From assembly GCA_019235885.1 (NCBI GenBank), contig JAFAKB010000074.1, forward strand, positions 62,001-126,000: a stretch of 64,000 nt of DNA, written 5' to 3'. The first letter of the stretch is position 1; each line of letters starts with the position of its first letter. This stretch comes from Candidatus Eremiobacterota bacterium (GTDB lineage: Bacteria > Vulcanimicrobiota > Vulcanimicrobiia > Vulcanimicrobiales > Vulcanimicrobiaceae). Shown here piece after piece: positions 35,538-42,559 of this stretch. The notes below the pieces were generated by a model that was not told the DNA's origin, ran no database searches, and saw nothing but the letters and a program-made list of their open reading frames with translations. Position numbers and translations under genes: made by a program.

Positions 35538-36952
<1,415 letters not shown>

Positions 36953-36956
<4 letters not shown>

Positions 36957-37456
36957 AAGCCGACAAGCAGCCCAAGCACAAGAACGCGCTGCCCGACGCG
37001 CGCGGCAAGCACTTCGCGATCGTCGTCGCCGACTTCTACACCGACCTCGCCGCGCAGCTCGAAGACGGCGCGCGGCGCGGCTTGCGCGACTGCGGCGTCG
37101 CCGACGATCACGTCGAGGTGGCGCACGTCCCGGGCTGCTTCGAGCTGCCGATCGCCGCGCGCCGCCTGATCTCCGACGGCGACTTCGACGGGGTCGTCGC
37201 GCTCGGCGTCGTCATCCGCGGCGAGACGCCGCACTTCGACTACGTCGCCGGCGAGTGTGCGCGCGGCATCATGAACGTCCAGCTCGCCACCGAGATCCCG
37301 ATCGGTTTCGGCGTCCTGACGACAGAGAACCGCGCCCAAGCCGAAGAGCGCGCCGACCCCAAGCGCGGCGACAAAGGCTACGAAGCGGCGATCGCCGCCG
37401 CGACCGTCGCCGTCCTCGAGCGCAAGCGGGAGAAGAAGCGCGTCGGCTTTCGATAA
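36953..37456 (+). CDS. ribH: lumazine synthase
   Basis: RibH condenses the two riboflavin precursors into lumazine and usually forms a capsid-like shell. The 167-residue protein contains HFAIVVADFYTDLAAQLEDG, VPGCFELPIAARRL, ALGVVIRGETPHFDYV and the catalytic region GVLTTENRAQAEERA. A charged C-terminus (RKREKKRVGFR) follows. The gene ends with TAA at 37454-37456. Its last roughly 54 codons recur, diverged, at 42395-42559. Confidence 0.95.
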
Positions 37457-38713: not shown

Positions 38714-39090
38714 TTGAACACACACCGATCGTTTAGAAACGGGTAACACACTACACGCGGCGTTGGACGTTTAGATCACTAGCCGCTGGGAACGGATATT
38801 TTGCGCTCCACAGCCAATGTTCGGAAGAACGAGGCGCTTGTGACGCTCGGTCGCGAAGATGCGGAAGTCGCCCACACCGTGGAACCGAAACCCATTCATC
38901 CAGTTCCGACAATAGTCATAACACGCTAGGCGATTTGTGTCAACGGAGCGCCGCGATTTTTTCATGATGTCGGCGCCACGAGGCGGACGCCGTTCGTATC
39001 GACGACATCCCCGGCTTATTGCGCGCCGAGCGAAACCTTAATCTGCACCGGGAGATTTGTCCCGCCGCGCTGCATCGCGCCTCTTGGAGC

Positions 39091-39188
39091 GGTTTGATGA
39101 ATCCCGCGCCCCGCGGGAGCTCCTTCAATAATTCCGCGCGATTTCGGGCGTTGAAGGTTCGATAAACCTCCGTCACAGTGTTCGCGGT
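39091..39188 (-). pseudogene. C-terminal remnant of a LuxR-type regulator
   Basis: The minus strand encodes ANTVTEVYRTFNARNRAELL, closely matching the tail of the regulator at 41509 (ANTVTEVYRAFNVRNRTELL). Stop codons (TAG) interrupt the frame just upstream, and no body of the gene is left. It is a relic of a second, oppositely oriented regulator in the same island. Confidence 0.65.
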
Positions 39189-39603
39189 CTACGTTCCGTG
39201 CGTCTATCGCTCTTCGCCGTCGTTTGAAACAGCGCATTCAAAGCCGGAAAAGAAGCCACTGCCGCCGACAACCTCCGGGGTGTAGGCGGACCGCTACTGT
39301 GTGGCAAGCGCGGCCCGCAGAGGCGATCGGCGGCAGCGTCCGCCGTTACCCGCGCTCACCCCGTCGAAGACGGCACTCGCACGGTAACGGACGATGGTGA
39401 AGCGTTCCCGACGTCCGATGAGTGCATCCCGCATCGTCGTGCAGTGAAGTTCGATGACCGCAAGCGCCGCACACTAACGCGACGGATTCATCGGACCGTC
39501 CGCAGACCCAAGCGTATGGCACCCGTCTCCTCCAGGATCGCACTGCCCGCCGCGTCGTGCGCGCAGTACCAGCACGCTACCACAGGACGCTTCTAATCAC
39601 CAT

Positions 39604-39673
39604 CCGGAGATTTCTCCCGGGGTTCCCTGTCGCAATGCTGGTATTCTAATCGGAACCGGGAGGTTTCTCCCGG
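39604..39673. promoter_or_regulatory. two inverted-repeat elements upstream of the peptide gene
   Basis: CCGGAGATTTCTCCCGG (39604-39620) and CCGGGAGGTTTCTCCCGG (39656-39673) are near-identical imperfect or perfect palindromes. Their starts are 52 bases apart, about five helical turns. The second extends to a 9-bp arm (AACCGGGAG / CTCCCGGTT). The peptide start lies 33 bases downstream. They are candidate operators for the TPR/LuxR regulator; the second could also form a terminator-like RNA hairpin. Confidence 0.6.
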
Positions 39674-39705
39674 TTTCTCTGGCTCAAGTGCCGGAAAGGG
39701 TGCCC

Positions 39706-39855
39706 ATGCTCGTAATCCTCGCGCTTGCCGCGCTACTGCTCGGTGGTACCGTCACGCCGAATGACGTTCTCCCTGGTGGACCGTCCATAACTACTAACGC
39801 GGCCACGATGCCCGCTGGTCCTGTTGACGACGGCCTAACCGGGGGACCCTCGTAA
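39706..39855 (+). CDS. 49-residue signal-peptide-like ORF, candidate peptide signal
   Basis: ATG 39706 follows GGAAAGGG by 5 bases, a good ribosome site. The product starts LVILALAALLLGG, a short hydrophobic export signal. A 35-residue Gly/Pro/Thr-rich tail follows (TPNDVLPGGPSITTNAA ... GLTGGPS). It is followed 35 bases later by the TPR/LuxR regulator. The order small exported peptide then TPR regulator is the layout of RRNPP-type quorum-sensing pairs, where the peptide tail is processed outside and re-imported. That role is inferred from layout alone. It could also be a leader peptide or a chance ORF. Confidence 0.55.
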   Translation: MLVILALAALLLGGTVTPNDVLPGGPSITTNAATMPAGPVDDGLTGGPS

Positions 39856-39889
39856 GACGGGGACGGAGTTCGCCCGCGCAAAGCGAAGG

Positions 39890-41509
39890 TTGCGCGCGGG
39901 TGTCACGGGGGAGGCACCTCGGAAAGGTGTCTCCCTCTCTTTATCCCGGGGAGGATTTACGTCTGCACAACGCCGGTCCAAGAACCAGCGCCATACGTTT
40001 CGGGAAGCGATAGACCTATGGTTCGCCGGGAACTTCGAGTTGTGCCTGGACGTCTGCGAATCCGTCAGTGAGCGCGCACCTGAGGTATTAGCGCAAGTAG
40101 AGCTCCTACGCGCTCGCGCACTACTGCGATTGAATCGTGCCGCCGAGGCGCTCGCAATCATTGACAATTTCGCATGGCCGGAAAGCGGCGACGTCGCGGT
40201 CACTGCACGCATGCTAAAGGGCGCGGCCCTCATTCGATCCGATGAAGTTGGCCGCGGTCTCGCGCTACTGGAAGCCCTTCAACAAACTGCGACCGACGCG
40301 CATCCAACGATTCAGTCCGAAATAGCGTTGAATCGCGCGCTCGGCCACTTCTGCCGCCATGAAGTGGACGCCGCCGATCGCGCCCTCGACTTGGTCTCTC
40401 CGGATACGGACATTGTGTACGCGCGAGCGCTCGAATATCGCGGCTGGGTTGCCTGTCGTCGCGCGAAGTTTCTCCTTGCCAGCAGGTACTTTCAGGAAGC
40501 CCTCGCGTTCCTAGACGGATGCAAACACTACGATCGGTACCTTGAAGCAAATTGTGCTCAAGTCCTCGCATTACTCACGATTGAACTTCTTGACCTTCCA
40601 ACGTGGACCGTGGTTGCTGAGCGTCGGGCGAAAATTGATTGGTCGGCGACGGATATTCAGCGTCATCGATTCTGGATCACGCTTTGCGCGGCGACCTACG
40701 CTTACGAAATCGAAGGAGCTGATCTTGTTGCGATCAGCGAAGGCCGTATGGCGGAAGCGCTCGCACCGACGCCGGCGGCGCGAGTCGAAGCCCTTTGCCG
40801 CCGAGCGGCCACGGCAGGGCGCGCCGCTGAGCGGCTTTCGCACCGGGACCATACGGACGAGGCGTACGAACTCTTTGCTTCGCTCAACCCAGCCCAATTC
40901 GAGCAGTATGACAAGCTGGTACCGCTTGTACTCGCGAAAGAGTTGTCGATCGCGGGTCGTGTCGAGCAGGCCCAACGCGTGTTTCACCTATACCGAGAGC
41001 ACCGGGGAACCTCTGCGTTGCTTGCGGTGACAGGAAACCCGTTTCGTCATGCGTTTGAAAAATTTATCGAAGGGTTTGTCGCAGAATCCGCCGACGATCG
41101 TGCGAGGGCGCGCCGCTCCTACCTCCAAGCCTTCACCAAGTTCCGCGCTATCGACTACAAGAGGCGAGCCGTGCACTCAGCTCTACGCCTCGGCGCACTG
41201 CTGAACGAGCCGGAGCTCTTTGAATACGCCGATGCGACGACGCGCCATTTGCCGCCGCAAGGCTGGCTTCGGCAACAGGTAGAAAGCCTGCCAACCGACA
41301 TTATCCTGCGAGGCCTTTCAATGGCGCGAAGGGACGTATTGCGATTGCTTTGCCAGGGCCTCACGATGGACGAGATCGCGCAACGCCGGGAGCGTTCGCC
41401 AAAGACGGTCGCAAACACGGTGACGGAAGTCTATCGTGCCTTCAACGTCCGCAACAGAACGGAACTACTGAACGAGCTCCTACGGCGCGGAATCATTAAA
41501 TCGGCATAG
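39890..41509 (+). CDS. TPR-type regulator with C-terminal LuxR HTH
   Basis: This protein is about 510-539 residues. The start is uncertain: the frame is open from GTG 39890, but a GGGGAGG at about 39950 suggests initiation near FTSAQRRSKNQRHTF with a non-standard codon. Residues from HTFREAIDLWFAGNFELCLD to about 460 are helix pairs of TPR type (LLRARALLRLNRAAEALAII, ARALEYRGWVACRRAKFLLA). The C-terminal 65 residues are a LuxR HTH: LSMARRDVLRLLCQGLTMDE, IAQRRERSPKTVANTVTEVY, RAFNVRNRTELL. It probably activates the peptide gene or its neighbours when the TPR part binds a ligand. No ATPase or kinase domain is visible. Confidence 0.8.
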   Translation: MRAGVTGEAPRKGVSLSLSRGGFTSAQRRSKNQRHTFREAIDLWFAGNFELCLDVCESVSERAPEVLAQVELLRARALLRLNRAAEALAIIDNFAWPESGDVAVTARMLKGAALIRSDEVGRGLALLEALQQTATDAHPTIQSEIALNRALGHFCRHEVDAADRALDLVSPDTDIVYARALEYRGWVACRRAKFLLASRYFQEALAFLDGCKHYDRYLEANCAQVLALLTIELLDLPTWTVVAERRAKIDWSATDIQRHRFWITLCAATYAYEIEGADLVAISEGRMAEALAPTPAARVEALCRRAATAGRAAERLSHRDHTDEAYELFASLNPAQFEQYDKLVPLVLAKELSIAGRVEQAQRVFHLYREHRGTSALLAVTGNPFRHAFEKFIEGFVAESADDRARARRSYLQAFTKFRAIDYKRRAVHSALRLGALLNEPELFEYADATTRHLPPQGWLRQQVESLPTDIILRGLSMARRDVLRLLCQGLTMDEIAQRRERSPKTVANTVTEVYRAFNVRNRTELLNELLRRGIIKSA

Positions 41510-41522
41510 TTCCCGCAGATAC

Positions 41523-41861
41523 TCATTGCCACAATGGGCCGTTTTCCGAGACGTACTCCGCCAGCATGTTCAGCACATCGCATTGACGCTGCCGAAGCTT
41601 CATAGAAAGAACGATCTCGGCGCGATCTGCGACGTACTGCAGATCGGGTGCGATCGTGCCTTGGCGACGCGAGACGATCCCGAGCAAAAGGAGCGAGATG
41701 AGGCCGCTCGTTCCCGCAGAGCTCTCGTAGGTGAGATACGCCTCCCGCAGCGTGCGTTCTGCGTCGCTGCAAGGCTCTCTCGTCCAATCGATGCCGGCCT
41801 TGTCAAATGCGTCGCAGGCCTTGAACGGTACGACGTTCATTCTCTTCGTCGAGTCATTCAC
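41523..41861 (-). CDS. unknown cassette protein A, copy 2
   Basis: This 112-residue paralogue of the protein at 29015 is about 85% identical by eye: MNVVPFKACDAFDKAGIDWT, YLTYESSAGTSGLISLLLLG, QRQCDVLNMLAEYVSENGPL. Most differences are conservative. Its start overlaps the HTH gene upstream (ATGA). The 3' end lies 14 bases past the convergent LuxR stop. Same-length retention in both copies suggests selection. The function is unknown. Confidence 0.65.
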   Translation of the reverse strand: MNDSTKRMNVVPFKACDAFDKAGIDWTREPCSDAERTLREAYLTYESSAGTSGLISLLLLGIVSRRQGTIAPDLQYVADRAEIVLSMKLRQRQCDVLNMLAEYVSENGPLWQ

Positions 41862-42392: not shown

Positions 42393-42559
42393 CCGAGATC
42401 CCCATCGGTTTCGGCGTGCTGACGACCGACAACCGCGCGCAAGCCGAAGAGCGCGCCGACCCGAGGCGCGGCGACAAAGGCTACGAAGCGGCGATCGCCG
42501 CCGCCACCGTTGCCGTCCTCGAGCGCAAGCGCGAGAAGAAGCGCGTGGGCTTCCGCTGA
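42393..42559 (+). pseudogene. duplicated 3' end of ribH
   Basis: From GAG 42395 to TGA 42557-42559 the plus strand encodes 54 residues (EIPIGFGVLTTDNRAQAEER ... RKREKKRVGFR) that match the end of RibH with only about three amino-acid changes. Most nucleotide differences from the true gene are synonymous, so the copy has diverged under former selection rather than being a fresh duplication. The 5' two-thirds of the gene is missing. It marks the right end of the island that begins after ribH. Confidence 0.85.

Follow-up and report, generated by a model that had tools for sequence, protein, structure and literature searches.

A candidate peptide signal gene beside a TPR-LuxR regulator, one of many paralogous pairs in Candidatus Eremiobacterota

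The window, by which we mean the whole stretch of 64,000 nucleotides analysed here, belongs to a Candidatus Eremiobacterota genome of 4.5 Mb in 105 contigs, and carries at 39706-41509 a short open reading frame (ORF) followed on the same strand by the gene of a TPR protein with a LuxR-type helix-turn-helix (HTH). The features assigned at this locus (L009) are:

39036-39065, no strand assigned: third, degenerate copy of the operator, beside the receptor remnant
39090-39186, minus strand: remains of a second TPR-LuxR gene (its 3′ end), with 75% identity to 41410-41503
39603-39620, no strand assigned: operator 1, TCCGGAGATTTCTCCCGG, an imperfect copy of operator 2 lying 53 bp upstream of it
39642-39647, plus strand: putative -10 element TATTCT, inferred from the alignment, in a stretch conserved in homologous loci L058 and L021
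39654-39675, no strand assigned: operator 2, the palindrome AACCGGGAGGTTTCTCCCGGTT, with symmetric changes in L058 and L021
39693-39699, plus strand: ribosome site GGAAAGG of the peptide gene, kept in the alignment with L058 and L021
39706-39855, plus strand: peptide precursor gene, 49 aa, ATG start and TAA stop, product MLVILALAALLLGGTVTPNDVLPGGPSITTNAATMPAGPVDDGLTGGPS
39763-39786, plus strand: tail unit 1, DVLPGGPS, inside the 49-aa ORF
39829-39852, plus strand: tail unit 2, DGLTGGPS, at the C-terminus of the 49-aa ORF
39907-39937, plus strand: terminator-like hairpin between the two genes, GC-rich and followed by TCTTT, covarying in homologues
39948-39954, plus strand: strong ribosome site GGGGAGG of the receptor, followed by ACG 39959
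39959-41509, plus strand: TPR-LuxR receptor gene, likely first codon ACG 39959 (previously placed at TTG 39890)
41324-41467, plus strand: LuxR/GerE HTH of the receptor (PF00196)

The 49-residue ORF and its good ribosome site are as the preliminary description had them. The export signal that it also claimed stands only in part, as the N-terminus is hydrophobic but holds no basic residue, and the word 'exported' rests on hydrophobicity alone. The g1 precursors likewise lack a basic n-region, while relatives in another genus are longer and lipoprotein-like; they have both a lipobox (LGGC) and a basic n-region, which make a better case for export than the window peptide does. Comparison of the peptides with Pfam and NCBIfam gave nothing of note, and an Rfam search of 38900-41600 gave no match. 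A RiPP or bacteriocin precursor was set aside, no modifying or immunity gene being seen nearby within the window.

That the downstream gene encodes a TPR protein with a LuxR HTH is borne out by three lines of evidence. The GerE HTH is matched above cut-off (PF00196, E 4e-7) at the C-terminus, residues 455-502 of about 515 aa; the same model is matched by all 25 of 25 aligned relatives, which also match TPR models; and the AlphaFold model presents an all-helical repeat superhelix followed by a C-terminal HTH (mean pLDDT 91.1). The closest structure to this model is domain III of MalT (Z 23.5), followed by pheromone-bound Rap (21.6), NprR (21.3) and AimR (19.5), although LGN (20.6), itself a TPR protein, and APC/C subunits (19.4) score close to these. 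The predicted fold fits a peptide receptor but does not prove one. There is no RRNPP chain among the PDB sequence matches listed for the receptor, which is an absence from that list and not an exclusion. No MalT ATPase module is seen in the 515 aa, and Pfam finds no autoinducer-binding domain in the protein, which has helical TPR repeats instead.

The gap of 35 bases formerly given between the two genes presupposes a receptor start at TTG 39890, which is unlikely because this codon precedes the terminator-like hairpin and lacks a good ribosome site. The true start is probably further downstream, as the conserved coding sequence begins behind GGGGAGG; the sequence after ACG 39959 is kept as protein in L058 and L021, and on this alignment the receptor probably starts at that codon. 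Across the receptors of the clade (L021, L058, L010, L022, L023, L024, L050 and L053) ATG, GTG and TTG are absent at the expected distance from the ribosome site (window 39948-39961), and ACG, GCG or TCG occupies the expected start position, which is unexplained; the L021 receptor has no standard in-frame start from the upstream stop to codon 28. That the peptide ORF is joined to the receptor by a frameshift was rejected, since frames and stops are not kept among homologues. The intergenic hairpin shows compensatory changes at seven of eleven consensus pairs in ten sequences, and could limit read-through into the receptor gene.

Several features of the surrounding DNA are recorded here as observations in their own right. 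The last 163 bp of ribH is duplicated at 92.6% identity (37290-37452 and 42393-42555), and these copies flank 5 kb of DNA that holds the peptide-receptor pair, as if it had been inserted at the ribH 3′ end; no integrase was recognised between them. A second version of the 600-bp stretch 39308-39898, which includes both operators together with the peptide gene, stands on contig C76 of the same genome, G000 (L103, L117), at 78% identity; it has no receptor and so represents an orphan peptide gene (MLVTLALAALLLGRTATPSEILPGGPS...GLPGGPS). The segment 39259-39336 forms a long imperfect inverted repeat with 22-nt arms; it has no Rfam match, and similar DNA lies upstream of the L010 peptide gene. The ribBA gene (35538-36956) encodes an N-terminal Cro/C1-type HTH domain (PF13560, PF01381), and this riboflavin enzyme may therefore double as a regulator.

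Eremiobacterota are a soil phylum, almost uncultured and known mostly from metagenomes; all genomes used here are drafts or metagenome-assembled genomes (MAGs). The named relatives of the receptor are from MAGs of Candidatus Eremiobacterota/WPS-2, several with the isolate name 'palsa'. Receptor matches occur in 88 of 99 searched genomes of the family, the window's genome having eleven further ones (one a remnant) and its congener G092 having 15; one pair was found in another family of the class (L137), and no viral contig with the receptor was found. In front of five of the paralogs in the window's genome stands a short hydrophobic ORF whose tail is related (DDSTSGGPSK, MDGVAGGGPS, ADDILLPTSGS, DSVTPSGPL and TDYVGGGGPG).

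It had been proposed that the peptide reading would fail if the small ORF were not conserved beside homologous regulators, or if it varied equally at synonymous and non-synonymous sites. Neither is the case. A short ORF with a hydrophobic N-terminus is present in 38 of 70 usable receptor upstream regions, against 3/70 on the antisense strand of the same regions, none of the 77 regions before other window ORFs and 0.3% of shuffles. The thresholds had been chosen with the first examples already known, but the same ones were applied to the controls. For about half of the homologous receptors no upstream peptide ORF is recognised. The variation that the small ORF does show is mainly synonymous. 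Between the window locus and its closest counterpart, L058, pS is 0.58 and pN 0.17 for the peptide gene, and 0.61 and 0.15 for the receptor, for which the comparison is limited to 167 codons because the L058 receptor spans more than one frame in its assembly; for the L056/L067 peptide genes the values are 0.18 and 0.03. These substitution patterns indicate that the peptide gene is under purifying selection, and on them and the controls a chance ORF was set aside.

In half of the precursors the tail unit is repeated: an internal seven-residue repeat is detected at p <= 0.02 in 22 of 44, nearly always at the tail motif, as in three units of DVLNGGPS type or four of DSVGGGPP. Among 271 codon comparisons between repeated units there are 135 synonymous and 9 non-synonymous differences, although the choice of units by motif lowers the non-synonymous count. 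In L078 identical octapeptides carry serine codon switches (TCG/AGT and TCG/AGC). That octapeptides remain identical with about half of their codons changed suggests selection on each unit, and this conservation of the repeats is the strongest sign in the sequences pointing to the tail unit itself as the product. Two precursors are of only 24-25 aa, a hydrophobic stretch and then an end in TGGPS or GAGPS. Divergence of the tail correlates with that of the receptor (r 0.51), but that of the N-terminus does so as well (r 0.61), and therefore joint inheritance is demonstrated more than matched specificity.

Palindromes are found mostly 23-46 nt before the peptide start, although a clear one is absent at some loci, and they differ among paralogs while agreeing among orthologs. 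Thus L010, L022, L023 and L050 have AGGTACGATCGTACCT-like sites in common, and L009, L058 and L021 share CGGGA-N6-TCCCG with symmetric changes. Genome-wide searches by sequence pattern were made for four operator types. AGGTACGATCGTACCT has a single site in each of four genomes, in every case in front of the cognate peptide gene; ATGCCCTAGGGCAT has one site at the L012 promoter and two at that of L062; TCCCCCRTTTGGGGGA has one site in each of two genomes. The window type, CGGGANNTTNNTCCCG, has five sites in the window's genome, at the window gene, the adjoining remnant, the peptide copy on C76 (intact but without a receptor), a decayed peptide copy on C1 and inside a long ORF, and four of the five were counted as marking peptide promoters. 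The four searched types thus occur essentially only at peptide promoters, and no target of the regulator beyond these promoters was found. Where loci share an operator, their HTH recognition helices are nearly the same. Because of this match and the restriction to promoters the palindromes are most simply taken as DNA sites of the neighbouring regulator, in the absence of binding data. A two-site spacing like the 53 bp of the window recurs in L021, L062 and L063. A sigma-70 scan of the locus gave no full promoter; with the inferred -10 at 39642-39647, operator 1 would be centred near -42 and operator 2 near +11. A site near -42 is the position typical of LuxR-type activators. The L010 operator, ACAGGTACGATCGTACCTGT (G000:C49:136032-136047), has ACCTGT half-sites that we take to be the same as those of the Vibrio fischeri lux box in opposite orientation, which may be chance.

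The reading that we consider probable is one of pheromone and receptor pairs in many paralogs, in which an exported peptide is sensed inside the cell by an autoregulating TPR-LuxR regulator; export, processing, import and binding all lack direct evidence. The hydrophobic N-terminus would send the precursor across the membrane, where proteases would cut out short units with GGPS at the end, in this case DVLPGGPS and DGLTGGPS. The peptide would re-enter the cytoplasm, probably via oligopeptide ABC transporters; the 19 matches in the genome to SBP_bac_5, the oligopeptide-binding protein family, only show that such transport is possible. It would then sit in the TPR superhelix of the neighbouring regulator. 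Recognition of the peptide-promoter palindrome by the C-terminal LuxR HTH is well supported, by the match of recognition helix and operator though not by binding data, and would place the peptide gene under the control of its own product. Activation would fit the position of operator 1, and repression or feedback that of operator 2, but the sign of regulation is not known. Through the hairpin and the non-standard start codon, less receptor than peptide may be made. Tail, operator and recognition helix all vary from one paralogous pair to another, which is what private channels would lead one to expect. The role of signal and receptor, first proposed from the gene layout alone, is in this way supported by conserved pairs, selected tandem units, operators particular to each pair and the many paralogs, while binding, export and a response to peptide remain inferences.

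Two other functions for the peptide have to be weighed. The precursors might be secreted or lipid-anchored effectors, such as surface, adhesive or antagonistic small proteins, the TPR-LuxR protein being their local regulator and sensing some other ligand. The lipobox-type precursors of one genus would suit such effectors, a plain regulator, too, would be expected to have its operator at the gene that it controls, and TPR-LuxR proteins such as MalT do sense small molecules. We nevertheless hold this to be unlikely: many precursors consist of a membrane segment, one unit and hardly anything else (24-25 aa), with little room for an effector, the product is confined to the repeated octapeptide, and regulator and tail diversify pair by pair.

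The alternative that we name as the main rival is a translational arrest leader of the SecM/RAPP type, in which the export N-terminus and C-terminal Gly-Pro stall the ribosome, altering the downstream hairpin and with it the expression of the receptor. The layout is the same, with an export-type N-terminus, conserved Gly-Pro near the stop, and a hairpin and ribosome site before the next gene, as in SecM/RAPP systems, where an export sequence and a C-terminal Gly/Pro motif lie upstream of a hairpin and the regulated gene; RAGP/RAPP arrest peptides are moreover widespread and, with YwcI upstream of sacT, not limited to Sec genes (PMC10987492). However, arrest needs one unit, whereas half of the precursors hold two to four selected units, of GGP type; the tails vary with receptor clade, some (DDILLPTSGS, YDAVIPIGL) having no GGP; an intact peptide gene with both operators exists without a receptor; and no Sec/YidC gene lies downstream. 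A single RAPP/RAGP-type motif near the C-terminus is not met with in the precursors, nor is a motif of the Arg-Ala-Pro-Pro type, although non-RAPP arrest sequences are not excluded. On balance an arrest leader appears quite improbable. That the palindromes are instead RNA hairpins in the peptide leader, with receptor and peptide co-inherited and no feedback loop, is very improbable, for although the palindrome in the window makes a good RNA fold and is placed downstream of the putative -10, a shared recognition helix goes with a shared palindrome across genomes, several palindromes have no loop, and the window has a further copy on the upstream side of the -10.

Known intracellular peptide quorum sensing belongs almost wholly to Firmicutes and their mobile elements. 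If the pheromone reading holds, the same answer would have been reached with another DNA-binding module, the pairs would be the first candidate communication system for Eremiobacterota, and they would offer many naturally distinct sets of peptide, receptor and operator. We think it somewhat more probable than otherwise that they form an independently evolved class of intracellular peptide pheromones outside the Gram-positives, in which the receptors join TPRs to a C-terminal LuxR HTH and have up to about 15 matches in a genome, the Gly-Gly-Pro pheromones are made singly or in tandem and each type of pair has a private operator. Such pairs are spread through one Eremiobacterota family and were found once in another family of the class. 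Neither a TPR-LuxR peptide receptor nor a quorum-sensing peptide in Eremiobacterota was found in a word search of open-licence papers, which can miss reports.

The preliminary description had seen an RRNPP-like layout with a different architecture, and this is upheld: the pair would work as RRNPP systems do, but with a C-terminal GerE HTH and outside Firmicutes. As in the RRNPP(A) systems (Rap-Phr, NprR-NprX, PlcR-PapR, Rgg-SHP, AimR-AimP and AloR-AloP), a small export-type precursor gene adjoins a TPR receptor gene and the mature signal, here inferred, is placed at the C-terminus. Tandem units occur in some RRNPP(A) precursors (PMC9765709, PMC11343458), and Paenibacillus has many paralogous RRNPP pairs per genome (PMC7425212), as here. 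In RRNPP(A), however, the DNA-binding domain is an N-terminal HTH or absent (PMC9765709, PMC12700828), a rule that the window receptor does not meet; its length of about 515 aa falls outside the 250-500 aa of RRNPP_detector (PMC10075063); and its relatives are in Candidatus Eremiobacterota, not in Firmicutes or their mobile elements. Because of the failed N-terminal HTH rule and the distant phylum we do not file the receptor as an RRNPP member. In the PatS/PatX-HetR system of cyanobacteria a short C-terminal peptide motif acts on a DNA-binding protein outside Firmicutes (PMC7761841), but HetR is not a TPR-LuxR protein, the motif is RG(S/T)GR and the peptide is a developmental inhibitor. The receptor does meet the criterion of LuxR/GerE transcription factors, a C-terminal GerE HTH, and resembles MalT and other LuxR-family regulators in its helical-repeat sensor followed by that HTH, differing from MalT in having a peptide gene as partner. 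With LuxR-AHL systems the proposed system shares an autoregulatory loop that acts at a palindrome recognised by a LuxR HTH, with one such palindrome near -42, but its sensor is a TPR domain in place of an autoinducer-binding domain and its signal an encoded peptide in place of the product of a synthase.
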